From the IMG/VR virus record IMGVR_UViG_3300035158_000906, positions 1 to 39,428 of that record: a DNA stretch of 39,428 nucleotides; one strand, given 5' to 3'. The stretch is from a virus. A model generated the notes under the pieces. It saw nothing but the letters and a program-made list of their open reading frames with translations, made no database searches and was not told where the DNA came from. Below are positions 2,255 through 34,000 of the stretch, one piece after another. Numbering within the stretch: position 1 is the stretch's first letter; each line of letters begins with the position of its first letter. The position numbers were made by a program, and so were the translations under genes.

Positions 2255-3595
2255 ATGCGCAAATTCTTTGTAGTAGATACGAGCGTGCTCATACATGACC
2301 CAGAAGCTCTTACAAAATTCGGCGAGAACCACCTGGTCATACCTTACATAGTAGTACACGAATTGGATATGCTGAGAAAGTCACAATCGGAGAGGGGCGT
2401 AGCAGCCAGGCGTATAATGAGACAACTAGAGAGCATCAGGCTGAGGATGGTCGAATCTGCCTCACGCAAGGTGCTGGTTAGCCCTAACACAGAAGCGGGC
2501 TGCACCCTCTCGTTCGAAGACCCCCATGAGCTTGGTGTTCCCCATCACGAGTTATCAGAGGTATCATCCCATGTCCACGACGACCTGATAATTGATTGCG
2601 CTAAAGACCTCATATGGGAAGCCAAGGGGGCAAAATCAGAAGTCAAACTAATATCTAAAGATATAGGCTTGAGGGTGAAGGCGTCTCTAATGGGGGTAGC
2701 TGCTGAGGACTACCAGCAAGACAAGGTAGAGGAGGGCTATACGGGTATCCGTAGAGAGACTATTATCCTCCCACTCGACCACCCAGACGACCTGCTGGAT
2801 GGAAGCGTTAAAGCCCCCGAATACTTGCTCGAAAACCAATTCTGCTACGTGCAAGCAGAGGGATACGAGAATGTACCGGCAATTCTCATGAGGAGGAAAC
2901 GGGGGCAACTCAAGGTCGTGGGCGAGTGGTCACACGGGATAAGCGGCATCGGGGCATTGGATGATGAGCAGAGAATGGCACTTGAGGTGCTTATGGATGA
3001 AGATGTAACATGTGTGGCCTTATTGGGTGTGGCAGGTTGTGGTAAGACATTACTGAGCCTTGCCGCCGCCCTGCAGCAGCTGGACCACAGTGAGGTAGAG
3101 CGCATTGTGGCTATCAAACCTGTAGTATCGGTAAATGGCAGGGACATAGGCTACCTGAAGGGGGATAAAGAGGAGAAGCTAAGCAACTGGCACAAGCCCT
3201 TCTCCGATAATCTCAAGGTCATACAAATGTACAGTGGCAAGGGTGGCAACGGCGACCTTGGAGAAGCTATGCTGATGGATGGCAGGTTAGAGCTGGAGGC
3301 CATTACATTTATGCGTGGCAGGCACCTCCACGGGAAGTTCGTTATAGTGGACGAAACACAAAACTGCAGCATCCACGAGATGCGAACTGTGCTGACGCGA
3401 ACAGGAGAGAAGAGTCAGCTAGCCCTCCTTGCCGACACATCTCAAATAGACCTGCAGTACCTGGATGCGCAGTCATGTGGCATTGCGCAAGTGGTTGACA
3501 AACTTAAGGGCGACCCAGAATTTGCTGTGGTAAAACTGGAGCGCTCACAGCGCAGCAGCTTTGCCCAACTGGCCGCCAATAAGCTCTCTGAGTAA
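2255..3595 (+). CDS. phoH: PhoH-family ATPase with N-terminal PIN domain (PhoH2-like)
   Basis: A 446-residue two-domain protein. Residues 1 to about 150 form a PIN ribonuclease-like domain with the acidic residues of FVVDTSVLIHDP (Asp8) and VVHELDML, and a late DDLIIDCAKDL segment. From about 230 on comes a PhoH ATPase: Walker A GVAGCGKT at 258-265, Walker B FVIVDETQN with Asp366, and arginine-containing C-terminal motifs (VLTRTGEKSQ, LERSQRS). PIN-PhoH fusions in bacteria have been reported to act as RNA helicase/RNases. PhoH genes are common in phages, where their benefit is unsettled. An AGGGG site lies eleven bases before the ATG. The length is normal for the fusion and both domains look intact. 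Confidence 0.92.
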   Translation: MRKFFVVDTSVLIHDPEALTKFGENHLVIPYIVVHELDMLRKSQSERGVAARRIMRQLESIRLRMVESASRKVLVSPNTEAGCTLSFEDPHELGVPHHELSEVSSHVHDDLIIDCAKDLIWEAKGAKSEVKLISKDIGLRVKASLMGVAAEDYQQDKVEEGYTGIRRETIILPLDHPDDLLDGSVKAPEYLLENQFCYVQAEGYENVPAILMRRKRGQLKVVGEWSHGISGIGALDDEQRMALEVLMDEDVTCVALLGVAGCGKTLLSLAAALQQLDHSEVERIVAIKPVVSVNGRDIGYLKGDKEEKLSNWHKPFSDNLKVIQMYSGKGGNGDLGEAMLMDGRLELEAITFMRGRHLHGKFVIVDETQNCSIHEMRTVLTRTGEKSQLALLADTSQIDLQYLDAQSCGIAQVVDKLKGDPEFAVVKLERSQRSSFAQLAANKLSE

Positions 3596-5095: not shown

Positions 5096-5968
5096 TTAGA
5101 ACACCTGCTCGTCATCGTATCTCCAATCGCACAAGGTGCCGAAGGCATTGCTGTCGTACACTTTCTGCATGTTGTCTGACACAAGCGCTTTGTTGCTTGC
5201 GTCCACATCGTAACCTACGCCTATCCTACCATGTGACTTGGCGGCTAGGAGTGTGCTCCCGCTGCCCATGAAAGGGTCGAGCACCACATCCCCTTCGTTA
5301 CTACCGAGCAATATACACTTGCCAGCTAAGTCCACAGGAAATGGAGCTGGGTGCTCGCGACTTGCTTGCGTTGTCTCGTATGGCACGAACCAGGCATTCC
5401 CCCTGCACCTTTTGTTTCGACCCCCCTTCCAACGCTCTATGTTGCTCTCATCCGAGTAGGGCACCCCCACTTCATCCCTATTGAGCTTCACTTCGCTGGG
5501 CCCCTTGGCAAACAAAAAGACTGGCTCCCAAGTGTCATTGAGAAGCTCCCCTCGCTTTGGGCGATAATGGCCCTTTGAAAACACGCTATCACCTATGTCT
5601 AACGATATCGACTTCACCCAAGCGATAGTCTGCAGCAGAGACCACCCATCCGATTCAAGCGCCTGCTCTTCAATAAGCTGCGCTACTCTCCAAGGTTTTG
5701 AGGGGTCGCTACGGGGTATCCCCAAGTTCATGAACATAACAGCGCCTCGCTTAGCCACACGGTAACACTCCCCAATAACACCGAGCAACATGCGCTCGTA
5801 GTGTTCTTCTGGGATGTCATCGTCGTAGCCCTTGTAGTCTACACCTATATTGTAGGGGGGTGAGGTGACAATGCAAGCCACGCTTTCGTTATCGAGCTCA
5901 ACCATGCATCGTGAATCTTCAAAAATACCCTTATGCCCCCCATCAAAATCAACTACGTTACGTCCCAT
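5096..5968 (-). CDS. DNA methyltransferase, class beta, TSPPYN type (290 aa)
   Basis: A complete amino-methyltransferase for DNA. The catalytic motif IV TSPPYN is at residues 35-40 and the SAM-binding motif I DPFMGSGST at 231-239, followed by VGYDVDASN. The order IV then I defines class beta. The TSPPY form is frequent in N4-cytosine enzymes but also occurs in N6-adenine ones, so the product base is left open. The variable middle region (about 85-215) probably holds the target recognition part. I chose ATG at 5968, with GGGAG seven bases upstream, over the TTG codon just before it. The start overlaps the end of the 160-residue gene upstream. No restriction endonuclease is visible beside it, so it looks like a solitary enzyme that may protect phage DNA. 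Confidence 0.92.
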   Translation of the reverse strand: MGRNVVDFDGGHKGIFEDSRCMVELDNESVACIVTSPPYNIGVDYKGYDDDIPEEHYERMLLGVIGECYRVAKRGAVMFMNLGIPRSDPSKPWRVAQLIEEQALESDGWSLLQTIAWVKSISLDIGDSVFSKGHYRPKRGELLNDTWEPVFLFAKGPSEVKLNRDEVGVPYSDESNIERWKGGRNKRCRGNAWFVPYETTQASREHPAPFPVDLAGKCILLGSNEGDVVLDPFMGSGSTLLAAKSHGRIGVGYDVDASNKALVSDNMQKVYDSNAFGTLCDWRYDDEQVF

Positions 5969-6440
5969 CAATTAACTCCCTCGTTTCCTTTGCATTGATG
6001 GCTATGGTTTCTATGTCCCCCTGGGGAACCGCTACGCCATAAACGCCCTGCCCCATATTCCTCGTGGTCCCCATCAACACAGCCATCTCAGGGTCTGCTA
6101 CGGTTTGCTTGGCCAGCAGCAGGTTTGCCAACTGCTCATGCTTGATAAACCAAGTCACCTCTTGTGTCATAATCAAAACTGTGTCGGCCACACCTTGCAC
6201 CAATCTACTGTTCTGGTAGCCATTGCGGGTCATGGCCGTAGGCAGTAGCCACACAGCAGAGGCAAACCCCTCGGCGGGGCGCGGAAACTCTACGGCTAGT
6301 CTTCTGCCGTACATCCTCACCTTCTCCACAGGAGCATCTCGGAGTAGGATATCGAAGTCATTATGCTCAGACAACTCACACTGCCAGCCCTGGTAGCTAT
6401 TGATGGTATTCGCCACCTGGGCAATTATACCGCCATTCAC
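5958..6440 (-). CDS. Hypothetical protein, GTG start (160 aa)
   Basis: First gene of the minus-strand operon. Translation starts at GTG with AAAGGAG eight bases upstream. The product has no membrane segment and looks like a compact alpha/beta protein (VRMYGRRLAVEFPRP, ASAVWLLPTAMTRNGY, QGVADTVLIMTQEVTWFIKHEQLANLLLAKQ). I do not recognise the family. It overlaps the DNA methyltransferase by 11 bases, so the two are likely made together. It could act with that enzyme, for example as a specificity or accessory factor, but this is only inferred from gene order. Confidence 0.65.
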   Translation of the reverse strand: MNGGIIAQVANTINSYQGWQCELSEHNDFDILLRDAPVEKVRMYGRRLAVEFPRPAEGFASAVWLLPTAMTRNGYQNSRLVQGVADTVLIMTQEVTWFIKHEQLANLLLAKQTVADPEMAVLMGTTRNMGQGVYGVAVPQGDIETIAINAKETRELIDGT

Positions 6441-6544: not shown

Positions 6545-6562
6545 CAATACTATAGTTGAAGA
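6545..6562 (+). repeat. 18-base direct repeat, copy 1 (upstream of small terminase)
   Basis: The sequence CAATACTATAGTTGAAGA is found here, 35 bases before the small-terminase start, and again identically at 13628-13645, 25 bases before the internal scaffold start. Both copies have the same orientation relative to the downstream gene. An exact 18-base match by chance in a window of this size is unlikely (roughly one percent by simple base counting). It may be a phage-specific promoter or regulator site. No sigma-70 -35 box is seen at the right distance. Confidence 0.5.
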
Positions 6563-6597
6563 CAACAACAATCGCACCCGTGCAGGGTGATTATACC

Positions 6598-7299
6598 ATG
6601 TCAGACGATATACCTCACAACCTATCTCAGAAGGAAGTCAAGTGGCTCAAGCGCATCCGAGCGGCCAGGGCGAGTGGCAATATATCGCAGTGGTGCAGGG
6701 ACAACAATGTCGCCAGGCAGGACTTATATACCTGGGAAAGGCGCATCACAAAGAAGGGTGCAGCCACAGAGCCTGGTGTGGAAAATGACGATGTGATTGG
6801 CCCCTCGATAGCAGAGGATGGGGGGCTTGGCTACCTTGAGAACTTGACTAAGCCAGAGAGAGAGTTCGTAACAAGGCGCAAGGAGGAGTACCTGGAGGAC
6901 TACCCCGACCTGAATAATTCAGTTGACATGATGTCTTTGCACATACTTCTTATGCAAGAGATAGACATCGCCAGGTTGCTCAAGCAGCAGGCAAAAGGCT
7001 CTGACGTGAGCGAGCGGCTGGAGAGAGCCCAGAAGATATTCCAGAACACCGCCAATAAGCTGGGTATAGACCGTGAGGACAGACTTAAGCGTGGGGAGAC
7101 GGGTAACGAGGGTGACATTGCCAGTTTCGCCCTGGAGATGCAGTCTGATATGCCTGATATTCTCAAGACATTGGAGCGAGAAGAGGAAGAGGAAGAGGAG
7201 CTCCTGCGGGAGCGAAGGGCAGAAGGTAGAGATGCGACAGCTATCCGCACTGAGGCCCCCGACGAGGAGGAGGTGCTGGTAGATGGCTCAGCGGATTAG
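6598..7299 (+). CDS. terS: Terminase small subunit (putative, 233 aa)
   Basis: Its place directly before the large terminase (17-base overlap) and its build suggest the DNA-recognition subunit of the packaging motor. Residues about 8-50 (LSQKEVKWLKRIRAARAS..., ISQWCRDNNVARQDLYTWERRI) look like a helix-turn-helix for DNA binding. The middle (MMSLHILLMQEIDIARLLKQQ, RLERAQKIFQNTANKLG) is a helical oligomerisation-like region, and the C-terminal part is very acidic (EREEEEEEELLRERR). I use ATG at 6598; a TTG at 6556 would add 14 residues without a ribosome site. Sequence of small terminases is poorly conserved, so the call leans on position. Confidence 0.75.
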   Translation: MSDDIPHNLSQKEVKWLKRIRAARASGNISQWCRDNNVARQDLYTWERRITKKGAATEPGVENDDVIGPSIAEDGGLGYLENLTKPEREFVTRRKEEYLEDYPDLNNSVDMMSLHILLMQEIDIARLLKQQAKGSDVSERLERAQKIFQNTANKLGIDREDRLKRGETGNEGDIASFALEMQSDMPDILKTLEREEEEEEELLRERRAEGRDATAIRTEAPDEEEVLVDGSAD

Positions 7300-10249
7300 T
7301 TATGACCAAATGCGGAAGACATTTGGCTTCCTCAAACAAAATCCCGTGGAAGCGGTTCGAAGAATACTTAACGTGGACATGCCACCACACCAAAGGATGG
7401 CAATCAGGCAAGCGTGGGAGAAGCCATACAACCTGTGGGTCTGGGGGAGGGGCTGCGGGAAGTGCACTTGCGGTGACACTATTGTATTTACTGACAATGG
7501 AATGTTGCAAATAGGTAACGAGCTCGGTGTCACTTCCCAGGAGCAAATGCTTGTGCCACTCAAGCGTAAGTTGTGGGGATTCAGCGAAGAAGCAGAGAGC
7601 TCACACTGGTACTGCGATGGTCATGGGCCAACCAAAAAAATCACCACCAGCATAGGCATAGAGCTTGAGGGCACACTAGAACATCCCGTTTTAGTCATGT
7701 GCGAAGACGGCTACATGAGGATGAGAAGACTTGAGAATATCAAGCCCGGTGACTATGTAGTTGTAGAGCATGGTCAGAACTACTTCGGTTCGTCAACTAA
7801 GCTGCTCTCTGTAGCTGCTACTGGCAAACGTGTCAAACTCCCTTCGCACATGACACCAGCATTGGCTTACTGGATAGGCCTAACGTTGGGTGACGGCTGC
7901 TTTACTGAATCCTCCAATACCATCGCCTTCACTGGTCTAGAGAGCACTCAATCCACATGGCGCTCACTGACAAAAGAAGTTTTCGATATCGAGCCCCGCC
8001 TATCAGAGCAAAGAGGAGACACGACCACCTATGCAATTTCCCGCCAACAACTAAACAACTGGCTTGAGCAGTCGGTGGGGATGGGGCGTAGTCTTTCTAT
8101 CAACAAATCAGTTCCCATCAGTATCCGCAAAGCACCAAAGGAGTGCGTGGCTGCCTTCCTTCGCGGCTTGTTTGACACAGATGGTGGAGTAGAGCATGGA
8201 GGAGCACAGCTTTACACCTCCTCGAAGGAACTAGCAAGACAAGTGCAGATAATCCTGCTCAACTTCGGCATCGTATCCTCGATACAGAGTCAGGAGACCG
8301 ACTGCAATGAGGCTTACCGTGTCGTTGTCCTGTCGGGCTTCAATGAGGTATTCGAGCAGGAGATTGGCTTCGACCACCCTGAAAAGAAGGCAAAGCTCAG
8401 AGAGCACAACCTAAAGGGAGAAAGCAATGGGCGTAATCATAATCTGTTCTGTGTTCCACACCTCGGGGAGATAGTCAAGCGCCTTCGTGCCAAAACCCGC
8501 GAGACTATGGATTGTGGATTCAGTCGTGAGGACAACTACTTTATCAAGAGCTTCTATCGCAAGGGTGAAAATCAAAGCTACGATAGAATAGCCAAACTGC
8601 CTGACATACTGCACGTAGACTGCCCCGAACGCCGTTACTTGCAGTCGCTGCTTGCACAGCGTTACTTCTTCGCAGAGGTTACTTCTGTAGAAGACAGCGA
8701 AGCAGTTACTTATGATTTTGTGGTCCCAGAAGGGCAGATGTTCTCGGGCAATGGCTTGGTCAATCATAATACATATTGCCTTGCTCTGATATCCTGCATA
8801 ACTGCCATCCTCCGCCCCAGAACTAGAGTCGTTATGGTCGGGAGTAGCTTCCGACAGAGCAAATTCGTCATGGAAGAAGTAGGCAACATATATGACCAGG
8901 CCCCCTACTTCCGAGAATGCTGCGAGAAGAAGATAATACACAACCCAGATGCTGTTACACTCAACTTCAAGAATGGTAGCTCAATCAGAGCAATGCCACT
9001 GGGCGACGGCGGTAAGATTCGTGGCGCTCGTGCTCACCTATTGGTTATTGATGAGGCTGCGCAGGTCCCGCCTGACATTATTGACAAAGTAGTCATGCCA
9101 ATGATGTCAACCGCAGTTGACCCAATGCTATCAGTAAAGATACAAAGAATGATAGACCAGGGCAAAGAAGTTCCGCAGGAATTGATGGACCAACTTAGGT
9201 CCAACCAGTTCGTCATGGCTTCATCGGCATACTATCAATTCAACCACCTATACGACAAATTCGAGACATTCAGCGAATTAACAGCTGAGACCATCGAGGG
9301 GGAGGAGAACCCCAAATATGACCCCAAATATGCCTTGCACGTCTACGATTACAGAGACCTGCCCAAGGGCTTCATGGACCAAGGCATCATAGAGCACGCG
9401 CGAGTTTCTATGCCATATTATGATTTCTTGATGGAGTGGCAAGCTGTATTCCCGCCAGACTCCGAAGGGTTCTATAAGATGTCCATGCTGGAACAGGTGT
9501 CTACCCCATCTGTCAAGATAAAGTTCCGTGGCGACAAGAACAAGGTTTACGTCATGGGAGTAGACCCAGCTCGTGTGTCTGATAATTTCGCCATTGTTAT
9601 CATTGAGCTTGGAGAAGAAGAGCACAGCGTAGTGAGGGTTATCCACCTGAACGACGAAAGCTTCCAGACCATGCGCGATAAGATACTAGAGTGCATGATT
9701 CACTACCCCAACATACAACGCATAGCTATGGACACAGGTGGTGGCGGGTTGGCTCTGATGGATATGTTGGCGGGTGAAGATGGGAATGACCTCGTGTGGA
9801 CCGACAAGACGGGCAAGGCACACACCATAGAACCCATCAGGGAGATTGACGACGATAGCAATAAACGAGGGCAGCGCATTTTGGATATGGTCAACTTCAC
9901 CCCGCAGAACAACCACGAAATGGCGACTAAGCTACGAGCCGCTTTCCAGACAGGGGCGTTGAAGCTCCCTGGGTACCAGGCGCAGCTCAACCCCAGCGAA
10001 GAAGAAGCAGCGCTTGAAATTCAAGAGATGAAGCAGGAGCTGGCTAACATAATCGCTAAGCCCACCAGAAGCGGCTGGCCCAAGTATGAAACAATTGATG
10101 CCAACAAGCAACTGAAGGACCGAGCGTCAGCCCTGTGGCTCTCCAACAAAGCAGCGGGTGACCTGACGAATACCGATGTGGAAGAGAAGAAGGAGCTTGC
10201 TGGCGGCATAGCGGGCAGTAACGTATTTGCAGTAAACATGGGAGTGTAG
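7283..10249 (+). CDS. terL: Terminase large subunit interrupted by an intein (988 aa precursor)
   Basis: The ATPase/nuclease of the DNA packaging motor. The precursor has 988 residues. Removing the intein (residues 61-496) leaves a 552-residue enzyme of normal size. Mature features are Walker A GRGCGKT (split by the intein between Lys and Thr), Walker B LLVIDEAAQ with precursor Asp590-Glu591, and the RNase H-like nuclease with Asp761 in VMGVDPARVSDN. Asp817 lies in IAMDTGGGG, and a late Asp in LKDRASALWLS. Since Walker A is cut, ATP hydrolysis and DNA packaging must depend on protein splicing. It overlaps the small subunit gene by 17 bases, and the portal gene starts three bases after its stop. 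Confidence 0.95.
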   Translation: MAQRISYDQMRKTFGFLKQNPVEAVRRILNVDMPPHQRMAIRQAWEKPYNLWVWGRGCGKCTCGDTIVFTDNGMLQIGNELGVTSQEQMLVPLKRKLWGFSEEAESSHWYCDGHGPTKKITTSIGIELEGTLEHPVLVMCEDGYMRMRRLENIKPGDYVVVEHGQNYFGSSTKLLSVAATGKRVKLPSHMTPALAYWIGLTLGDGCFTESSNTIAFTGLESTQSTWRSLTKEVFDIEPRLSEQRGDTTTYAISRQQLNNWLEQSVGMGRSLSINKSVPISIRKAPKECVAAFLRGLFDTDGGVEHGGAQLYTSSKELARQVQIILLNFGIVSSIQSQETDCNEAYRVVVLSGFNEVFEQEIGFDHPEKKAKLREHNLKGESNGRNHNLFCVPHLGEIVKRLRAKTRETMDCGFSREDNYFIKSFYRKGENQSYDRIAKLPDILHVDCPERRYLQSLLAQRYFFAEVTSVEDSEAVTYDFVVPEGQMFSGNGLVNHNTYCLALISCITAILRPRTRVVMVGSSFRQSKFVMEEVGNIYDQAPYFRECCEKKIIHNPDAVTLNFKNGSSIRAMPLGDGGKIRGARAHLLVIDEAAQVPPDIIDKVVMPMMSTAVDPMLSVKIQRMIDQGKEVPQELMDQLRSNQFVMASSAYYQFNHLYDKFETFSELTAETIEGEENPKYDPKYALHVYDYRDLPKGFMDQGIIEHARVSMPYYDFLMEWQAVFPPDSEGFYKMSMLEQVSTPSVKIKFRGDKNKVYVMGVDPARVSDNFAIVIIELGEEEHSVVRVIHLNDESFQTMRDKILECMIHYPNIQRIAMDTGGGGLALMDMLAGEDGNDLVWTDKTGKAHTIEPIREIDDDSNKRGQRILDMVNFTPQNNHEMATKLRAAFQTGALKLPGYQAQLNPSEEEAALEIQEMKQELANIIAKPTRSGWPKYETIDANKQLKDRASALWLSNKAAGDLTNTDVEEKKELAGGIAGSNVFAVNMGV
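7463..8770 (+). mobile_element. Intein with LAGLIDADG homing endonuclease in terL
   Basis: A 436-residue in-frame insertion. The N-terminal splicing block begins with Cys1 (CTCGDTIVF), block B has TLEH, block F reads VTYDFVVPEGQMF, and the C-terminus is GNGLVNHN followed by Thr as the +1 extein residue. All are canonical for a class 1 intein. Between the blocks are two LAGLIDADG-type helices, LAYWIGLTLGDGC at intein residues 134-146 and FLRGLFDTDGG at 232-242, about one hundred residues apart as usual. Their acidic residues are kept, so the endonuclease may be active. Insertion lies exactly between Lys and Thr of GxxGKT, a conserved site that favours homing into related phages. Confidence 0.95.
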
Positions 10250-10252
10250 CAA

Positions 10253-12031
10253 ATGGATAATGTGACACACGGTGATGTGGGAAAGGTCATAGACCACCAA
10301 GATGGTGCCATGTCTCTCATAGCAGAGGTAACCCCCACCAAAAGGCAACAGGTAGACAACGGCCTGAATGAAGTGGTGCAGGCCACGGGCACCGGAAGCG
10401 TACGGCAGATTGAGGGGCTTGGGGGGAGCATAGAACAAACCGCCGAACGAGCAGTTGCCAACACTATGTTCCGCAGGGACTCTCAGCTCAACCCCGCAAG
10501 GAAATCAAACACTGAGCCCTTCATGGATTTGCCAATGAGCGGGCGGGACTCCCACGATGTCTACCGCAAACAGATTGGGCTGGCGCAGGAGCTTTACTTC
10601 TGGGAGCCCATCATTGCCACAGTCATTGATATTATGGTGGAGTTTTCCATAGCTGGCATGCACCACCAAAGTAACCACCCTCGTGTCAAGAAGTGGTTTG
10701 ATGATTGGGCAGAAGAGGTGAGGCTTGAGCAGGTCATAAAGTGGGCATTGCAAGACTACTACCTGTCGGGGGCTGCTCGTATCATGCGACAGGATAACGA
10801 GCAGGGCGTCCCAGTGGGCTTCAACGTTATCAACCCAGCAGTGGTCAGAATAGAGGGCTCCCTAAACACCGCCCTTACAGGGGAGGCCCCCAAGTACGCT
10901 ATCAAAAAGAGAGACCTTACCTCCGACCAGTACCTGGATAGAAATAGCGACATACAGTGGCCCAGCTGGGTGCGGGAAAAGGAGGATATGATAATCATAC
11001 CCAGCGACCGCATGTTCTCCATTGAACGCAAGAAGATGCCATACCAACGCTATCCCACCCCACTGGTCATGCGAGTAGCCCGAGCAATCATGTTCAAGCG
11101 CAAGCTGGAGCTTATGGACTGGTCAACAGCAGACAATATGATTAACAGTCTGGTCACCGTGACTATTGGCAATGACGAATACCCAGCTACCAAGAAGCAG
11201 ATACAACAGCTCAAGAAGGTATTCCAAACTGGCGCTAAGTCCATGATTGTCTATTGGGACCACACCCTCAATGTGCAGTTTCATAGGCCAGAGGCCGACC
11301 AGGTGCTGGGCTCTGAGAAGTACGAGCGTGTTATTCAAGACATCATGACAGGCCTTGGCGTCAGCCAATCTCTCGTGTCAGGTGGCGGAGGCGGCAGCGG
11401 CGCTTACGCCAGCCAATGGATTGCAGTCCTAGCCCTAATCGAGCGGCTTGAGTGGGGCAGGCAAGATATCATACAGGCGTTTAGGCCCATATACCGCGAC
11501 ATAATGAGGTCTCGGGGCGAGTACTCCGTGGACCCGCCAGAGCTGAAGTTCGACCGCATGCGGCTCAGGCAAGAGGACCGCGTGAAGATGATTCTGATGG
11601 CCATGAGAGACCGTGGCCTGCTCTCGGCACGCACCGCTCTGGAGGAAGCTGGCTATGACGCAGAGACCGAAATGGAAAATCAAAAGGATGAAATGGAGCT
11701 TATGGAGGAGGGAATCTTCACCCCGATAGGTAATACTCCTATAAAGGGAGAGCCTGGAAGACCCAAGGGTAGGCCTGGCAATTACCCCGACATGAGACAA
11801 CCTAACGACTCTCAGCCAGACCAGCAATCAGATGGAAAAGAAAGAATGGTCATGGTTGATGGGGATATTGTCATACCTACTAACGACGACATCGTTGAGG
11901 CGGAGACAGAAAGCGAGATAGAGAAGCTAGACCGCGAGATAGAACGAGCGCAGCAGGCTGCTGAAGAGTTAGAGCAACGCAAGCAACAGTTGCTCACCCA
12001 GTCGCCTGACGATTACGAGGGAGATGATTAA
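10253..12031 (+). CDS. Portal protein (592 aa)
   Basis: The dodecameric ring through which DNA enters and leaves the capsid. Identification rests on its place after the large terminase, its length, and portal-like segments: an N-terminal QIGLAQELYFWEPIIATVIDIMVEF helix region and IPSDRMFSIERKKMPYQRYPTPLV. These are followed by helices (AIMFKRKLELMDWSTADNMINS) and the GLGVSQSLVSGGGGGSG loop typical of portals before the crown/stem helices. The C-terminal 100 residues are polar and charged, ending in a coiled-coil-like stretch (IEKLDREIERAQQAAEELEQ), perhaps a crown tail. It starts three bases after terL. Confidence 0.88.
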   Translation: MDNVTHGDVGKVIDHQDGAMSLIAEVTPTKRQQVDNGLNEVVQATGTGSVRQIEGLGGSIEQTAERAVANTMFRRDSQLNPARKSNTEPFMDLPMSGRDSHDVYRKQIGLAQELYFWEPIIATVIDIMVEFSIAGMHHQSNHPRVKKWFDDWAEEVRLEQVIKWALQDYYLSGAARIMRQDNEQGVPVGFNVINPAVVRIEGSLNTALTGEAPKYAIKKRDLTSDQYLDRNSDIQWPSWVREKEDMIIIPSDRMFSIERKKMPYQRYPTPLVMRVARAIMFKRKLELMDWSTADNMINSLVTVTIGNDEYPATKKQIQQLKKVFQTGAKSMIVYWDHTLNVQFHRPEADQVLGSEKYERVIQDIMTGLGVSQSLVSGGGGGSGAYASQWIAVLALIERLEWGRQDIIQAFRPIYRDIMRSRGEYSVDPPELKFDRMRLRQEDRVKMILMAMRDRGLLSARTALEEAGYDAETEMENQKDEMELMEEGIFTPIGNTPIKGEPGRPKGRPGNYPDMRQPNDSQPDQQSDGKERMVMVDGDIVIPTNDDIVEAETESEIEKLDREIERAQQAAEELEQRKQQLLTQSPDDYEGDD

Positions 12032-22041: not shown

Positions 22042-25000
22042 ATGCCACAAGCAGGCGGACACACACCGTACCAACATGTCATCAACCTCAGGGTTGATGC
22101 AAGTAAGGCCATACAACAGCTCAACGCGCTTAAGGGCGAAGCGGAGACTGCTGAAACCTCCATCAAGGAATCGATGGAGAGCATCCGCTCCGCCCTTTCG
22201 CTTGGTGGTCAAAAGGGTCAAAATGCCAAGGGGCTCTTTGCTAACATAGAGTCCCAAGCTGGCGCACTTGGCAAGGCGTTACAGACCTCCGTGTCAAGCT
22301 CCGTCAGAGAGGGCTTGACTACGGGCACCAGAGAGGGTCTCTCCAACATGGAGCGGACCATCACCACCAGCGTGCAGACTGCCGTCGAAACAGGCGTCAG
22401 GCAGGCCCTCAGGAACGTTGAGGGTATGATAAGTGAGACCATTCAGTCTGGTGCCCAGGCAACAACGCGCCCCGCCGCAGCTCGCAGAGAAACGGCTGGC
22501 GGCGGCGCTCCCTCTATGGTCGTATCTCCCACACCACAGCCAGCATCCTCACCACCTCCAGAACCACAAAAGCCACGCTATGATACTGCCAGCCCTGGTC
22601 AGGAGATTAGGGGTGGTGGTGTCATACGTCAGGTTGTAAAGACACAGGGCTCCCCAAGCGATGAACTGGTCAACTGGACCAGAGAACAGGGCTACCAGTT
22701 GCCCCCAGGCCACACTGTGCGTAAGGTGGCCGAGGTAGCCAGTCGTGGTGATGTCATAGACGTTGGCGGCACCAGGCATCAAGTGGTTGGCCTCCCCGAA
22801 GGGCAGTCCATGTCCGAGCAACAGAGAAGGGCTGCTGAACGGGCTGGTTATAGAACTCCCCCAGGCACCACTATAAGAGCCATGGAAGCCGCAAGGCAGC
22901 GCAGGGCTATGGCAGCCGCTAGGCAGCAGAGAGCACGAAGCATGAGCGGTAGTCAGCCAGACTTATTCCATGGAGATACCTCCATAGACCCAAGATACGA
23001 TAACCCTATATTTGAGAATAGCCCAATAGCTCGCCCAACGGATGTCTACCCAATCATGAGAGGTGGCAAGAGTATGCTTGCCATCTCACGAGCTAGCACA
23101 CAAACGGGAGCAGTGAACCAGGGGGTTGGGCCTAAGGTCCAGGTAAACACCTATGACGCAAATGTCAAAGAGGCTGCGCGTAGAGTAGCAGCAGAGCGAG
23201 TGGCACAAGAACGTTATGAGGAAGGATTGCGCGAGTACCAAAGGCAGCAGGCTGAGTATGAAGTAGCCAAAAAAGAATGGTCTGGAAACTTGTGGGGAGA
23301 TACAGAAGAGCCAAGGCCACCGACGCCCCCAACATTCCAAGAGGTATCCCCCAGCGAAGTAAATAACTCAGAAGTTAGTAAGGTATACTCGGAATTGAGG
23401 GGAGAAGTCGCACCGCCTTCTGAGCTCAACAAAAGCATAACTGCCGCCCATGCTTCTCGTGCAGCCAGGGTACGCTCTGGGGAGCTAGACAAGTGGTCGG
23501 TGTCACTGGTCAAAGAAGACGCTAGAGAGGCAATGCAAGGCTATACCGGAGCTAGTCATGTAAAGTTTCACCCAGATGTAGATGATGGCAGGAATGTCCC
23601 TAATAGTGAGACGGCTGAGCGCTTTATGGCTCATCTCAACCAGTTGCCTGGCTCAAAGACAGCGCAGTACAACGATGTTTTTCAAGCTACACTAGCCGAA
23701 GAGGACGTAGCTGGCGTGTTGCTTGATACAGTGCTCAGGAAAGAGATGGGCTCAAAGACACATCAGATATTCGACCAGCCTAATGTTCCAATGTACGGCA
23801 AGGGGCGTAGCACACAAGGAACAGCTGATTGGCTCATAAGAAACTTTATGGGCAACAAGAGCTTCTTCCTAGAAGACGCAGGTCCAGCTCACCAACCAGC
23901 TGGCATTATGGGACTAGCGCCAGACAAAACAGCAAAAGAAGGCCCTGGGCAGTACCCAGGGATTGTAACGCCGACAGATGCAACTGTGTGGCAAATGCTA
24001 CAAACAGTCATGGGCGACATAACGCAGATGTCTGGTGTGATGGACCACGAGCTTGCCTTGTCTCAAATGTTCCCAGAGCAAGGGTTTGGGCGGCCCGTAT
24101 CAGCTATAAGTGGTAGGTTGGGCCTGGAGGGCTTCACAGAAGCAATCTCCAGCACTGAGATGCTGACGCCTGAAAACTTCGAGCAAGTCAAGAGAAACAT
24201 GTTGCTTAACCACATCACCGCCACCATGACAGGCGGTACTCGCCCTGAGTATGGCTTAGGGCTAAGCCCAGGTGTTGCGCACAGAGCAAGGAATGTCACT
24301 GAGCTTGAGGGCCGGGGTTGGACCGAGCCTATTGGTGGTAATAAGAGGCAAAGAACCAGGCCAATGTACATTGGCAATGTAGCTGAAACTATAGAAAACC
24401 TCATGAGAAGAGGTGCTCCCTATAGTGTGGAGCACCATGCTGGCAATTTGCTTAATTTCCTGCAAGAAATGGATGCCACCCGCATACCTGGCACTGGAAT
24501 GCGCGAAACAGTTGGCATCGAAAATGTGCCAGTTAGCAAAGAGCTATTTACTAACTTAGCAAGGATGCAGGCAAATCAAGTAATGGGCAGTGGTTCGCAG
24601 CCATTCTCATTTGACTATCTAATTAGCGAAGCAGCTAGGCGTCAGGGTAACCCTAAACTTGCAGAAGACTATTACCACCCAGACATCCATGGCATGCCAG
24701 AAAAAGACTGGATGCGCTCTGGGCGAATGGTTGTACCAGCGGGCAGGGGAATGCAATCAACCTCCGCTATATCCCGTGGAATAAAAGACTTATCTGGCAG
24801 CGATGCATTTCACCTCGGCTCGGGTGTTATGGGCAAAATCCCATTTGGCATGCGAGGGGACCAGGGCCTCATAAATGAACTTGGCGTAGGTGTGGGCGAC
24901 ATTACAATGGGCACCACCCTTTACTCGGGCACGGGAGGCATTGGGTCGGTGGGGGCCTATGCTATGGACCCAGATACTGCGGCACAAGCGCAGGCAGCTA

Positions 25001-28000
25001 TGCAAGAAATACTTGGCCCAGCTGCTCAGATGAGTCGCGTCCTCCCCGAGGGTATGATGGAACTCAATATACCAGGGGAGTATGGTGAGGATAGCACTCG
25101 AATCAACGCGGCCACCCGAATGGAAGCTGTCAGGCAGGCGCTGCCGCTCTTCCAGGGTCAGCCATTTATCAACCAAGGCATAGGTACATGGTACGAGGGA
25201 GAAGAGCTGCCTTGGACCGAGCCCGTGACCACTATGAGGGGCATGCCTCGCGGACATGAAGGTGTGCAAGGCGGTATCGGCTTTATACAAGCCTTGCAAG
25301 AAAGATTTGCACAGCAAGCTACACTCATAGGACTTGGGGGCAAGAGGCAACCTCAAGCTTGGACCACGACAGGTGAATTCAAGGACGTAATGGGCAGTGA
25401 TGCGCAATCTGCCTACCAGCGTTACATGCGCACGCTGCCAGATGCCACCGCACAACAGCTCCTGCCACCAACCTACAGGTCAGACGAATTTGGGCGTGGC
25501 ATGGAGGGCAGCTCAGCTGCAATGCAGGCCTTCATGAAGAACATGGGGGTCAACTACAACCCTGATATATACAGCGAGCTCATGCCAGATGCTGGTCGGC
25601 AGGAGAAGAAATCACTAGAGCCCTGGATGCAAAGTGGGGTCCCCGGGGAATACCCACGAATGGATTGGCTGCACAACGCAGCACGCACCATACCTCAAGA
25701 ATGGTGGCCCCACCTTGGCTCCCTACACGTTATGGGGGCAAAGGATGCGGGGCACGCTAACAGATTAAACATAGCAGAGACCATATCCACCGGTCAGGGC
25801 GTTCTCTCAACTGGGCCAGTGAGCCGTCACGTATTTATGGGTCCCAAGTCGGCTAACAGCCCCAGCGATACGCTATCCACTTTGTGGCACGAAATGGGCC
25901 ACGTTATGGACTTCGAGGCGCAGGCTGGCAATGTGCCATTTGACCCAGAGCAGCAGGCCATGTGGGACCGCTACAGAGAGGTATTCCAGAAGGCCAAAAG
26001 CTCCAGGGCAGGTTTTGGTGCTTATGCGAGAGATTATGCTTGGGATTTCAAGCATGAAGATGTATCAACCATAATGGAGGGACTTGTCACATCTCCCAAC
26101 GTTAGAGCAGAGCGCGGCTTCATCAGCCGCCCAGCCCTGCTTGCCAAAGCACAAGAGAATCCACTTCTCAGACAGAGAATAGGCCTTCTATCTGGCGCAT
26201 TCAATCTACCACGTGGTGTGGCAGCATTTGAAGATGAGGCCCGCAGGGGCATGGGGAGCAGTCCAAGACAGTCGCCGTTCAATATAGGCCAAGAGCATAT
26301 ACAGAACCTCTTGCAGTTCCCTTATGTTGGCGGTCTACATGGCGAAAAGTCTATGAGCCAAAGCGACCTCAAGCACCTGAGAGAAGCGCAAGAGGTTGGA
26401 AGAGAAAGGCTTAGGCTTCGACAGGAAAGTGGTCGCCACGTACGGTTCGGGGAATTCCCTTACGTAGGGACCTCTCAGGCCGTCATCCCATTCAGGCCCG
26501 GTGCTTCGGGGTACGAATCCACCCTTAACCTCGCCCGAGAGCAGTTGCAGCGCATACAACAAGAGTCTGGCGTCAACCTCGACCTCCCCGAAGATGCTGG
26601 GGCGCAACAGGTGGCAAGAGCATTTGAGCAACTCACCCCGGGCCAAGACGTGGGAACAGGCACATTCAAGCAGGCCATGACTCAAGCGTATGGCATGCCA
26701 GAAGAGGTTTTCGGGAAGATATTTGACCCAGAGTGGAGACACTCCCGCCGCAGAATCGGTGAGCTTGGTGTCAAAGACATCTCCCACTGGCACCCGCAGG
26801 CTACTACGGCAAGTGGCAGGCCAGCAGCTGCACATAGTATATCTGACCTTGAGTTGGCTCTTGATGAGTTCGCCCAGACCGGCAGTTTCTACGGAGCGGA
26901 AAGCTTCGAGGCTGGCGGCATAGAGGGCATGTACCGCCTGACACCCCCCAAGCCCGAGAGTGACAGAGACAGCGAGCTCTATCGCCGCAAGGCGCGGGAT
27001 ATACACAAGAGAATACAGGCCGTAAGACAGGCTGCACAAGACCCAGAGACTGACTTCACAATGGCGGATGTGGAGCGCTCTGGCATGGTCTACCGCCTCA
27101 TGCAAAACGCTGGTTGGGGCGTAGAGCCCATGAAGATGGCCCCGCAGATGATGGGGCCAATGGCAGCGGTAAAGACCGCTGGCACGTCGCCTGGGCCGAC
27201 CGAAACCACAGGTAGAGCCCCCACCTCCTATGCCTACATCAATGAGATGAAACTGGGGCAAAGCACCAAGCAGCTTGCCGATGCTGATGAGCAACTCGTG
27301 CCAGTCATGCAGCGAGTAAGCAATGCTATGGCACGGCAGACCACAGCAGTGCTTGAGAAGTACGAGGCTATGCAGAAGCTCCTCACATCTGTGAGGGAGC
27401 TGTCACAACACGAGGGCACACTTGCCAAGTCGTTGACAGGTGCTGCCACTGTTACTGAGGGAACGCACGCAATCCCTCTCAAGGAATCGCTGACGGGTGA
27501 CCTGGGTCGCCTATTCAGACCCCAGCAGCTTGACAGACTAAAGCAAGAATTTGGCAAGAGCATGGGGCTGGAGGGCACAGCCCTTGACAAAGAGTGGAGC
27601 AGCCTGGAGAGCAGCTTCAAGCAGCGCTTCGGAAGGCGCTGGCGCGGTCCTCTCATGGAGCAAGGCGCAGAGGCCGTCACCCCACAAGCCCTTAGGGAAG
27701 GGATGATGGGCGTATTCACAGAAGCAATGGGCTCTCGCGGGGGGATGGGCAGAGCACAGGCTGAACAGCTCATTGCCAATGTCCTTGCCGGTAGAGGGGC
27801 TGGAGGCGGAGGAGGCGGCACTGCTAGCCGAGGCAGTGGCGGTGGCGGAAGAGCTAGCGTGCCACAAGGACAACAAGAGTATGTCGTTAGAACGGGACAA
27901 GAATATCGCGCCGCACTGCAAGATATCAGCCAGAATATGGGCGCTGCCTCAGACCGCATGCGTCGTTGGATTCAGGAAACTGGCCTACCAGAAAGCGCGG

Positions 28001-31000
28001 TCAGGGGGCGCATAGGGACTGAGTACGGCATCACGATGCTCGGCCCCAACGACGAGGTGATGGCACAGCAGCGAGTGCCCACCCAATGGCAGGGCAGAAG
28101 AAGTGGCTTCCAGGTCAATGCAGGCGACATGGCCGAACAGGCCACGGGCATGCAGCGACTTGGCCTCACGGTTGAGAAGGTTGGTATGTGGGGTGTGGCA
28201 ACAGGTGCTGTGTATGGCTTCCTGAGAGCTATCAGAGAAGCCATGTCAACCATGACCCAGTTCGAAGATAAGATGGCAGGGGCGAAAGTCCTTATGCCAC
28301 TTACCACGAACTGGAAGAAACTAGCAGAATTCGCTGGTGGCACAGCTAGAGAATACGGAACCTCAATCATGACGGTTATGGATGCTACCCGTCAATGGAT
28401 GAGGCAGTACAAGGACCTCAACCAAGTGCTGGATATGACACGAGAAGCAATCAAGCTATCTCGTGTAGACAACATAGACCTGGCCAAGGCCAATAAGTAT
28501 CTTGAATCAACCATCAACGAGTTCAACCTATCCGCGACAAGCGCACAGCGTATCGTGGACAGCTGGACCAATGTGACGAACAATGCCCAGGTTGCTATGA
28601 CCGACCTGGCTGGCGGTATCAGCCGAGCTGGTGCTGCCGCTAAGATTGCCGGTGTTGACTTTGATGAGCTCAATGGCATGATAGCGGCAGGCGTCAGGGC
28701 CACGGGTGAAACAGGCCAGCAAATAGGGCAGATGCTGAAGACTGTGTTCGGTAAGATGTACACAGACAAGGCAGTCAAGACCCTGCAGGACCTCGGGATA
28801 GCCGTGGGCGAGATGCGCGAGGGAGTCACACAACTGCGCCCAGCTGGAGATATACTCGAAGAGCTAGCGAATAAGTGGAACAGCCTATCAAGAGCACAGC
28901 AGCAGCAGGCAGCCATGTCAATGGCTGGTGGTGTAAGGCAGTGGTCCCGTCTGGCCGCTATGCTCGCTGAGTACCAAACAGCTGTTGATGCCACGGCTGC
29001 CTCTCAGAATGCATTTGGCACTGCCGCCCGAGAGGTTAGCATCAGAATGGACACGGTGACGGGTGCCCTGTCCAAGCTCAAGGGTGCCTGGAGCAGACTC
29101 ATAGGTGACCTGGGCTTCAGGCAGAATGTGCTCAAGCCCATCAGGGAAGCCATTGACCTCACCACCGAGCTAGTGGACGCATTCTCCGCACTCCCCGATT
29201 CCATCAAGGCGGCCACAGTCATTGTGGGGGCGTTGGCTGCTAAGATTGCTACGCTCAACCTCATGTTCCGAGCATTCGGGATGGGCAACATCGTCGATGT
29301 CGGAGGCTTGTGGTATGGCGGCATCAGCGCGGCTGGCATGGGTCCTGAGCCAGTAGCCACACCTGGTTCTGGCTCTGCTGTGCCGCTGCTAGGCGGTGGG
29401 GGAGCTGCTGCAGCTGGCGGCAGGGGCATGGCTGCCACCTCAGCCACAGGACAGGCACTTGCCGTAGCAGGTGGCGAAGTCGGCGGCAGCATGATTGCAC
29501 GCCGAATGGGGTCTACGGGCAGCAGGGTTGCTGGTGAGGTAACAGAAGAGGCAGTAGAGGGTGGCTTGTGGAGTAGAATGGGCCGCTCATTCCGCTACGG
29601 GTATTCCCCAAAGACAGGAACCACACTGTTTGGGAGCCTGAGAAGCAAGGGCGTAGCTGGCGTGATGGATGATGTGGCTACCAGTGGCAGGCAGTTCGCC
29701 GCTGGCATGAGCTCCATTGTGGGTAAGCTCGCAAGGTTCGCGAAGATTCTGGGCGTGCTCATTATTGCTGGGCTAGCTGTCTCGAAGGGCTACGAAGCCA
29801 TCAGCGACAGAATAAAGCGCATGGGCATGAGCGAGTCAGAGCTCAAGCGTGCTGATATCCAAGAGGGGTTGGAAGAAGGCGCTGTGTACCTTGAGGCCAT
29901 GGGCCAACTGAATGAGCTCAGGTCTGTAGAAAACCCATCACTGCAGCAGTTGGCTCAAATAGAGAGGTTAGAAGAGCAAGCGCAGGAAGCACAGAAGCCA
30001 AACCTGCCTGGTGGAATCAACACAGTAGCTGGCGCGAACAGCAGAATGTCGCAGCTGCTTATAGACCAATACCTTGAGCAGCTGCCAGACATGAATCTGC
30101 AAGATATCATAGAATTCAACCCCGAAGTCATAAATGCTCCTCGGGGCGTAGGGCAGATTGGTGGCACCGAGTGGGCTCAGCTTGTAGAGCGCGGCATAAT
30201 CGGCACTCAAGAGCGCCTCTCTGGCGAGGACCAGCGAGCGCAACGGGAGTATATGATACGAGAGTATCTTGCCCAGTACGCCAGCGGAGATGCCGAGTTG
30301 GATGCCCCCTGGAGAAGGCCAGGTATTTCACTTGATGAAGTTATCAAGCAAGCTACAGGTAGGGACCTACTAAGAGACCGCCAAGAGATACAAGGGGCAC
30401 TGGCGCAAGGGGTGCCAGAGGGCGGGGAGGTCCCCGTGGTGCTCGGTCAGTACCAGGGCGAAGCAACCGCTGCATTCCTGCGCCCTACGGATGAAGGATT
30501 CGAGACGCAAGTACCTGGGATGGAAGAGCCAATACAGGCCCAAACCCTGCAAGGGCTAGCAGCTAAGATGGAGGAACTAGATGTATCCATCGAGGCTCTC
30601 ATCCACCCATCGAGAGAGGTAGAGCAGGCGTTCCTCAACACATCCAGCAACCTCGATGTGCTCAACAAAGAGCTGCAAAATATAAGCAAATCCCTGTCAT
30701 TGATTCGCAACGCTGTAGATTTGACAGCTCGCATATCAGGGCCAACTGGAGTATCTGGGGCGCTTAACAGAGCACAGATGGGCGCTATGGGCAGGATGAT
30801 AGAGCCCACGGAGCGCATGCGGGGGCAGGCTTGGAACAGAGAGCGTTACGTCATAGAAGAAGTCTTCCCTAATGTTAGAGAAGAAATACAAACTGCCATA
30901 AACAACGTGATGAAGGAAGGGCAGTTTGAAAGCGAGGAGGCAGTTGTTCAGTACGCCCGCAAGCAACGGGTGTCGGGCGGGGAGGTCGGCGAGGACCTTG

Positions 31001-34000
31001 GCGAGATAGAAGATGTCGTGAAGGCCCTTGAGAAGCAAGAGAAGGCCGTGCAGTCCCTGCAGAAGGCCCAAATGGACCGCCTCAAGGCCGAGCAGCAGCT
31101 GCTTGAGATTGAGGAGCAGCTACGCAAGACTCAAGACCAAAGCCTTGAGTACTTCAATGTGTGGGACAGGCTAACCGGTTCAGTGGACAGCGCCCGCGAG
31201 GCTGCATGGGGCTACTTCAATGTCATCAAGTCAATTAGAGAGCAGCAAGCTCAGCTAAGCACACAAGCAAGCCTGGGCGCAGGTCACAGTGCCTACATAA
31301 AATCAATAGAAGAAAGAATGTCCACTAGGAATCAATACGCCGCAAGTGTGGGTGCCGCTCAAATCAATGCTGAGGCCGCTCAAGGCCTAGCACTCGGCGG
31401 CGTGCCATGGGTAGAAGCTGCAAGGCCAGGCTTCTCTCCAGCACCAGCAATCAGGGAGCTCAATGCCCAGATGCAGCAGGGCATGGATGTAGGTGGAGCC
31501 ACCACCAGCGATGTCGGGCAAGCTCTAATAATCACAACCAGAATATTCGACAACGCCGTGGCTAGATTCGAACAGGCGGTCGGTAGTTTTTCGGGTGGTA
31601 GTGGAGGGTGGGACTACACAGGGGGACTAGGGGCACCAGGTAGACTCTCTAGTGTCCCAGCTAGAGCTACCGGTGGAATGATATCTCAGTCCAGTGGCGA
31701 GGACATAACCGCACAGTCGCCGCGCGACAGCGTGCTCATTCGCGCACAGCCTGGTGAGGCTATCCTTAACAAGAAGGCTGTGCAGGCCATAGGCCACCGG
31801 GGTGTTGATGAGCTCAATAAGCTCCCTGGCTATCAGGGCGGTGGTATAATTGGAGACCCTGTTACACAAAGACTGTGGTCTCAAGTCCAAGAGCCCTCCA
31901 TTGTAGAAAGAATATCTGCCTGGATGAGTGGCGGCAAATCTATAGGGTCAATAGACCCAAGGGTTACAAGAGAGCTAGAAGCTGCCGGTATAGAGCCAAG
32001 AACTTTCTTGGAGAGACTGCGTAACCCATCCCCACAAAGTGATGAGATTATTGAGTTTTTGCACAGGGGGAGCCTGGGGCGACCAGAACACTTAAACTTC
32101 CCTGAAGCCACCTCAGAGCAACTTGCACAACTGCGTCGCACCATATACAAAGATGAATTGTCGCGTGTCGGAGGCAATACATCATTCCGCCAAGCATCGC
32201 GAGCCTCTGATGCTGTTGTGGAAAGCATACACCCGAGAACGGGTGGCTCTAATCGCTTGCGTACAGCTATTGAGCGCGGACAAGAAGCCCTCGAACAAGA
32301 GTGGGCACGTGTGCGTGCCTCCGAAGCAGAGGTAGGCACCAAGATAGAAGTCGGCAGAGCCAGAGCTGCCCGGGTAGAGGCTGGCAGAAGCGCATTGCGA
32401 CAGCCATTATCCGAAATAGGGGAAGACCTATCAAGGGGTAGAGTGAGCGACCCCCTTGGTGGCATGGCACCCAGACAAAGGGCATTGCCATTCAACAGAG
32501 TGTCTGCAGAAGAGGGGCAAAGGATATACGAGATTGCCAGAAGACAGGCTGCGGAAGATGGAGCCACAGAAGGTCAGAGAGCTATCGCCGATGCAGTTGA
32601 AGAGTGGAGAAATGCGCATCCGGAAGGGGCCACAGGCACCCCTGCTGATGATGTTGCTGAATCGGCGGCAAGAACTGCCAGCAGAGAGGCTGCTGGTGAA
32701 GCGAGCTCATCTGGTGGTAGGCTAGCCTCTGCCTGGCAAGGGACCAAACGAAGAACTGGCGCAACGATGCGGTGGCTAGCAGAGCCAATGACACAAGGCA
32801 TGGGGAGACTAGCAGCTACAGAAGGGTCGAGTTGGGGCTCTAGCGCACTCAGGGGAATAGGCCGCAGTGCTAGCAGGGCAGAAATCTTTAGCATACTAGC
32901 TGGTGGCTACTTCGGCTACACAGGCGCTAGAGACAAAGGCATCGGTGCAGAAATGCGCGAAGGCGCTATTGAGGCTGGTACACTAGGGCTCTCAAATGTA
33001 GCTGATTGGTTTGGCGGTGGCGCACTTGGTTGGGGGCTTGCTGGCGCTGGGGCATTGGGCGCATTGTTGTTAGCCCCCGAATTCGCCATTCCACTTCTAT
33101 TGGGAGCTGGGCTATACGGCGTTGGACGCATGGCCGGTGCTGGAGTGTACTCATGGCAACAACACCTGGGCGCATGGCGTCAAGGCGAGACTTCGCTATT
33201 CAGCTCAGAAGGTTGGTTTAGTGAGGGTGAACTAGGTAGTATTATAGAAAGAGAGCAGCTTGAACGCCGTGCTGGGGTAAGCCTCGAAGGTCTACAGAAG
33301 TTCGCTCAGGGCGGCGAGGTCAAACCCAGCAGTGGCGTATACGATGCTACACAAACACAGGACAAAGTGCTCACCGCGCTCAGCCCCGGTGAGTATGTAG
33401 TCAATAGAGAAGCATCAGAAAAGATTGGAAGAGCTGGGCTGGATGCCATCAACAGAGGTGATATGGAGACGGCCTTCAACGTTGCGCTGAAGCGACAAGG
33501 TGGAGGCCCGATAGATGAAAGGTATAGAGACAGAATGCACGAAGGCGGCTTCTACTTCAGGCACCCCTGGGAAGAGGGCGGAGAGTCTGGCGAATATGTA
33601 CGTATGAAGCCAAATGACCCAAGGATGATGCTGCACGACCCAAGGCAAATGGGTCGTTATACAGAAAGAACAGATAGCGGAGACTACCGCTTTTCCGTTG
33701 AACAACTCAATCGCCAACATCATAATGTAGGCATAGGAGGGTTGAGTTGGTGGAATCGGCTAATCAGGACAAAGGACCAAGAAAGAGCGTTGCTCAGGAA
33801 TAGGTGGGTAGAAGCCACGCGCGACCTGGGGCAAACTCCAATACATCCATCTAATATACCAGGTTCTGGATGGGAATCCACAGAAAACGACCCATTCGTA
33901 GAAGAGCATAGTGGATTTGACGCTGGGCGACAAGCGCCTCCAAGGCGCAGGAATATGCTCGCACAGATACAGGCTCAGGAACTTGAGCGAGCTATGGTCG

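Follow-up and report, generated by a model that had tools for sequence, protein, structure and literature searches.

Inteins at P-loops and in phage terminases

The mechanism of class 1 protein splicing is established knowledge (PMC10663303). Among the terminase inteins described from phages, the TerL1-a inteins of mycobacteriophages lie within the Walker A motif of the terminase large subunit (TerL), a position termed the 'classic' P-loop insertion (PMC5050341). According to the same account, terminase inteins at sites b, c, e, f and g were shown to splice, with those at sites b and c also cutting DNA. TerL inteins have also been reported from crAss-like phages, with one TerL containing two (PMC7886860), and the P-loop intein of P. 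horikoshii RadA is cited as disrupting ATPase function (PMC6195587). Here, a viral IMG/VR record of 39,428 bases was analysed over its whole length (the window). As explained below, it almost certainly encodes a class 1 intein, with a LAGLIDADG endonuclease nested inside it, at the P-loop site GxGK/T of a Terminase_6-type TerL (a slash marks the splice junction throughout).

The intein and its host gene

The features of the locus are given in Table 1. Neither a stop nor a frameshift interrupts the 988-aa ORF, which was recognised as a Terminase_6 (T4-type) terminase large subunit by its Walker A ATPase, its nuclease domain and its portal and capsid neighbours. Terminase_6N was matched over its cut-off (Pfam, 1.8e-5, residues 497-604), and Terminase_6C narrowly under it (21.4 bits, cut-off 22.6, residues 758-834). 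A search of PHROGs with the C-extein returned terminase large subunit (2e-19) and the downstream genes were assigned as portal and major head protein. The ORF overlapping the start of terL is a possible small terminase, judging from its position and a weak HTH match.

Elsewhere in the window, a 4,533-residue ORF (22042-35643, + strand) occupies about one third of the record and matches PhageMin_Tail (5.5e-24); it is probably the tape-measure protein. A PhoH-like ATPase fused with a PIN domain is encoded at 2255-3595 (+), and a DNA methylase (N6_N4_Mtase, 1.9e-42) is found on the opposite strand at 5096-5971 (-), just upstream of the packaging genes.

Table 1. Positions of the terminase gene, its intein and neighbouring features within the window.
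Feature	Position	Strand	Basis or remark
Possible small terminase, overlaps terL start	6556..7299	+	Position and weak HTH_29 match (0.0057, under cut-off)
Terminase large subunit gene (terL), intein-bearing precursor	7283..10249	+	988 codons without interruption; Terminase_6N; PHROG
N-extein, 60 aa, ends ...VWGRGCGK	7283..7462	+	Translation
Walker A, first part, GRGCGK	7445..7462	+	Alignment with intein-free TerLs; Thr497 codon (8771-8773) completes the motif
Cys58 (position -3)	7454..7456	+	With Cys1 (7463-7465) gives C-G-K-C (CXXC) across the N-terminal splice junction
Class 1 intein with LAGLIDADG homing endonuclease	7463..8770	+	436 aa, residues 61-496
Block A, CTCGDT, nucleophile Cys1	7463..7480	+	Intein alignment
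Block B, TLEH (TxxH), T71-L-E-H74	7673..7684	+	H74 invariant in 8/8 aligned inteins
LAGLIDADG helix 1, WIGLTLGDG, acidic D144	7871..7897	+	Intein alignment
LAGLIDADG_3 domain match	8141..8368	+	Pfam, 5.3e-20, over cut-off
LAGLIDADG helix 2, LRGLFDTDG, acidic D240	8159..8185	+	Inside the LAGLIDADG_3 match
Block F, Asp418	8714..8716	+	D418 invariant in 8/8 aligned inteins
Block G, NGLVNHN, intein residues 430-436; penultimate His435, terminal Asn436	8750..8770	+	Intein alignment
C-extein, 492 aa, begins TYCLAL; remaining ATPase and nuclease domain	8771..10246	+	Pfam
Portal protein gene, adjoins terL	10253..12031	+	PHROG 2739, 1.1e-16

The original prediction had placed a 436-residue intein here, splitting the Walker A motif of the packaging ATPase between Lys and Thr. 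This was borne out, with coordinates and lengths exact: the intein separates Lys60 from Thr497, so that the +1 residue is Thr, and joining the exteins (60 + 492 = 552 aa) gives ...VWGRGCGK-TYCLAL... with the Walker A motif GRGCGKT. The individual motifs that had been named (Cys1, TLEH, a block G ending NHN, Thr+1 and two LAGLIDADG helices) were likewise all recovered, and the Pfam search proposed at the time returned both LAGLIDADG_3 and Intein_splicing over their cut-offs. For the latter (PF14890), the protein search gave 36.7 bits against a cut-off of 35.8 (4.6e-9), and a six-frame search gave two pieces of 22.3 and 14.7 bits, each under the cut-off. The best NCBIfam match was GyrA_w_intein (1.3e-22, residues 102-499). 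The intein matches are far beyond chance.

Residues C1, T71LEH74, H435, N436 and T+1 are those of a class 1 intein and are accompanied by the splicing profile and a predicted Hint fold; class 1 splicing follows from this anatomy (PMC10663303). Moreover, C1, H74, D97, K215, P218, D418, H435 and N436 are invariant in all eight aligned inteins. The GC content of the intein (0.494) is close to that of the C-extein (0.501), and composition therefore gives no sign of recent import. Cys63 was considered as the start of the intein and ruled out, because the K/C..GDT alignment of relatives places Cys1 at Cys61. A class 3 intein was set aside, since Cys occupies position 1.

The terL gene would be translated as a single 988-aa precursor. 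T71/H74 and D418 would assist Cys1 in its attack on the Lys60-Cys61 bond. The acyl group would pass to Thr+1, and Asn436 would cyclise with the assistance of His435. Joining of the exteins would restore GRGCGKT and yield the active packaging ATPase of 552 aa. Before splicing, ATP binding is very unlikely, given that the precursor has 436 residues between the Walker A Lys and Thr. The packaging motor probably works only after the intein has removed itself, and it would be reasonable to suppose that the precursor is without ATPase and that virion assembly is tied to splicing. The freed 436-aa intein is probably still a DNA endonuclease, which would cut intein-free terL alleles at the Walker A codons; repair of a cut allele would then copy the intein in (homing). 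Splicing, DNA cleavage, homing and any effect on the timing of assembly are, for the present intein, what we infer from its sequence.

The endonuclease and the predicted fold

Two LAGLIDADG helices are present with one acidic residue in each (D144 and D240). The endonuclease had been described beforehand as intact-looking, a description that still holds: it looks intact because neither acidic residue has been lost and Lys215, which is conserved, is retained. LAGLIDADG_3 is matched at 5.3e-20. The intein was modelled in AlphaFold2 with 10 residues of flank on its N side and 5 on its C side, from an eight-row alignment (mean pLDDT 74, pTM 0.83), the flanks being poorly modelled. The model matches the TliVMA intein structures 7qsu (Z 29.9, 321 residues, 3.4 Å) and 7qss (Z 29.2, 390 residues, 4.3 Å), and these matches span model residues 9-446, which is the whole length of the splicing and endonuclease domains. 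A third whole-length match was to 2cw7 (Z 27.1). Further matches were to the Pho RadA intein 4e2t (Z 14.4) and, over about residues 138-324 (the endonuclease), to I-DmoI. A Foldseek search with the model gave a match at 3.6e-24.

Intein-free relatives of the terminase

When IMG/VR was scanned by alignment for relatives of the C-extein, 63 TerL loci were obtained. An unsplit Walker A motif is readable in 55 of these, the Lys being followed by Thr in 30 and by Ser in 25. The remaining eight comprise one locus interrupted by an intein at the present position (L032, C-junction GFISHN/T, N-junction beyond the contig end) and seven without a visible Walker A stretch. The TerLs of phages MaeS and Slash are also intein-free at Walker A. 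The insert is in-frame and absent from these homologous host proteins, and the objection anticipated in the original prediction, that intein-free relatives might contain the 436 residues, fails on the 55 unsplit TerLs. Single-protein scans of IMG/VR with the C-extein or the intein found no close relatives. A two-row intein alignment gave no matches when scanned against IMG/VR viral contigs; against genome contigs it gave 40 loci, of which nine were read. A TerL tree was built from 33 of the 63 loci, the present TerL, MaeS and Slash, leaving out near copies, incomplete rows, L068-L071 (inteins at other sites) and L041. The closest TerL in this set is 41% identical to the present one.

Inteins at other sites were also seen in this terminase family. 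Three members, L068 (1463-5878), L069 and L071 (4656-9131), contain two inteins each and a Walker A motif that is intein-free, and are counted among the 55. Their first intein lies directly after the Walker B-like stretch (DEFSC or DEFAC) and ends HN/S; their second lies between the ATPase and nuclease halves (EAC or NAC) and ends HN/C. Only the site between the two halves is visible in L070. There are at least three intein sites in this TerL family, Walker A included, and possibly a fourth in L065 (2-1579), whose frame opens on a stretch resembling an intein tail, DSHSFMGNSIKNRN/C, a short way upstream of the Walker B-like GDEFS.

Inteins at the same P-loop position

The same Lys/Thr boundary is occupied by inteins in the terminases of Psychrobacillus phage Perkons (MT325768), Paenibacillus L076, Chengkuizengella L077 and IMG/VR L032, in phage helicases (Staphylococcus S25-3, Enterococcus 156, Listeria VEfB7) and in RecA-like proteins (Bacillus fHSPT3, Escherichia PhiR41_1). 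It is also occupied in a protein of the uncultured phage LR745208 and, with the N-junction only, in the protein of L078; on our own reading these are helicase-like and FtsH-like, respectively. Lys is found at -1 in all 11 P-loop inteins with a visible N-junction, and among the 11 with a visible C-junction the +1 residue is Thr in 10 and Ser in one. The expectation that Thr+1 would be less common does not, therefore, apply at this site. The claim that the insertion marks a conserved site stands, with the qualification that it is the classic insertion point already documented in PMC5050341.

The nearest intein to the present one is about 30-35% identical. The present intein scores 446-482 when compared with the three inteins from TerL Walker A motifs, and 260-370 with six from other proteins. 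Although longer than the intein, the joined exteins reach just 40-82 with the TerLs of those three. High intein scores combined with low extein scores fit, without proving, a transfer of inteins from one distant terminase to another at a single site. In two intein trees, the second of which left out L078 and L032 (partial) and L092 (far, long-branched), the present intein has no supported sister and the base is unresolved. The Perkons-type TerL inteins lie nearest to it both by tree path and by score. A single clade of TerL Walker A inteins is absent from the free tree and was not rejected by the AU test (p = 0.091).

Inteins related to the present one were also found in S-adenosylmethionine synthetase-like genes (L079-L082, our own reading) of an Omnitrophota bacterium and three archaeal MAGs, at one common site, GGG[CA]F/C ... 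CHN/SGKD. In L079, too, a Cys lies close to the junction, at -2.

Alternative explanations

It is possible, though rather unlikely, that the element now only splices, its endonuclease being already dead and the intein being kept only because its loss must be precise. Consistent with this, the IMG/VR scans returned no close relatives, so that no trace of recent homing is visible, and altered motifs are seen in some of the P-loop inteins from herelleviruses that were aligned with it (e.g. ADSY, LECES in S25-3). However, D144, D240 and Lys215 are all kept here, the reading frame is unbroken, and the helices agree with those of the Perkons-type inteins (IGDGG, FDTDGG). That the insert, free as it is of stops and frameshifts, is instead a permanent, unspliced domain of the terminase is extremely improbable: 436 residues would part the Walker A Lys from its Thr, every class 1 splicing residue is kept, and there are relatives without the insert.

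A closer inspection of the N-terminal junction of the class 1 intein revealed that Walker A and the first intein residue read G-R-G-C58-G-K60/C61, with both cysteines of a MoaA-like redox trap, Cys(-3) and Cys1, present. The C-G-K-C junction is a new observation, additional to the original prediction. A Cys(-3)-Cys1 disulfide might block the first step of splicing until the cytoplasm is reducing, and the packaging motor would then sense redox state. The native P. abyssi MoaA intein is described as being under such control (PMC3922620), and an N-junction CXXC of a Cys1 intein as able to confer a redox switch (PMC11766414). We nevertheless consider redox gating improbable here, and it was demoted as the main reading because the same Cys is found in 4/55 TerLs without an intein there (L022, L025, L026 and L028, of which L025 and L028 are near copies). 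Moreover, the GCGK label must have changed two or more times on the TerL tree, judging from its starred branches, and Cys(-3) occurs in only one of the 11 P-loop inteins with a visible N-junction, the present one. The bacterial cytoplasm is normally reducing, which also counts against redox-gated splicing. The default reading is that Cys58 belongs to the terminase and that the CXXC would be a coincidence.

Comparison with known systems

With the class 1 intein described here, the hosts of P-loop inteins come to include a phage lineage whose TerL is of the Terminase_6 type. That TerLs so distant from one another are interrupted at exactly the same codon boundary fits homing that is site-specific and directed at the most strongly conserved codons. 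Were the CXXC junction functional, virion assembly would here be redox-gated, with splicing turning the packaging motor on only while the cell is reducing. Cys at -3 and Cys1 are likewise found in the P. abyssi MoaA intein, but its host protein is different and the disulfide was demonstrated there (PMC3922620).

In fold, the TliVMA and PhoVMA inteins (7qss, 7qsu, 7qst) share the whole-length arrangement of splicing and endonuclease domains at about 20% identity, their host being a V-type ATPase subunit. The helicase and RecA-like inteins of S25-3, Enterococcus 156, VEfB7, fHSPT3 and PhiR41_1 have the same overall architecture and the same GK/C...HN/T or S pattern at the P-loop (22-25% identity), but the proteins that carry them are different, their endonuclease motifs are altered in some cases, and they form their own supported cluster in the tree. 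The mycobacteriophage TerL1-a inteins, likened here by their description, are hosted by Terminase_1 rather than by a Terminase_6-type protein, while the TerL6 inteins of the same account sit in the C-motif (site f), unlike the present Walker A site (PMC5050341). Perkons, L076 and L077 share with the present intein the TerL gene, the Lys/Thr site, the length class (442-446 aa) and the form of both LAGLIDADG motifs; their inteins are 29-34% and their exteins 24-27% identical to those described here, and they have Phe or Tyr at -3 where the present intein has Cys. Inteins at the Walker A Lys/Thr boundary of TerL are therefore already known, and the present one adds a member.
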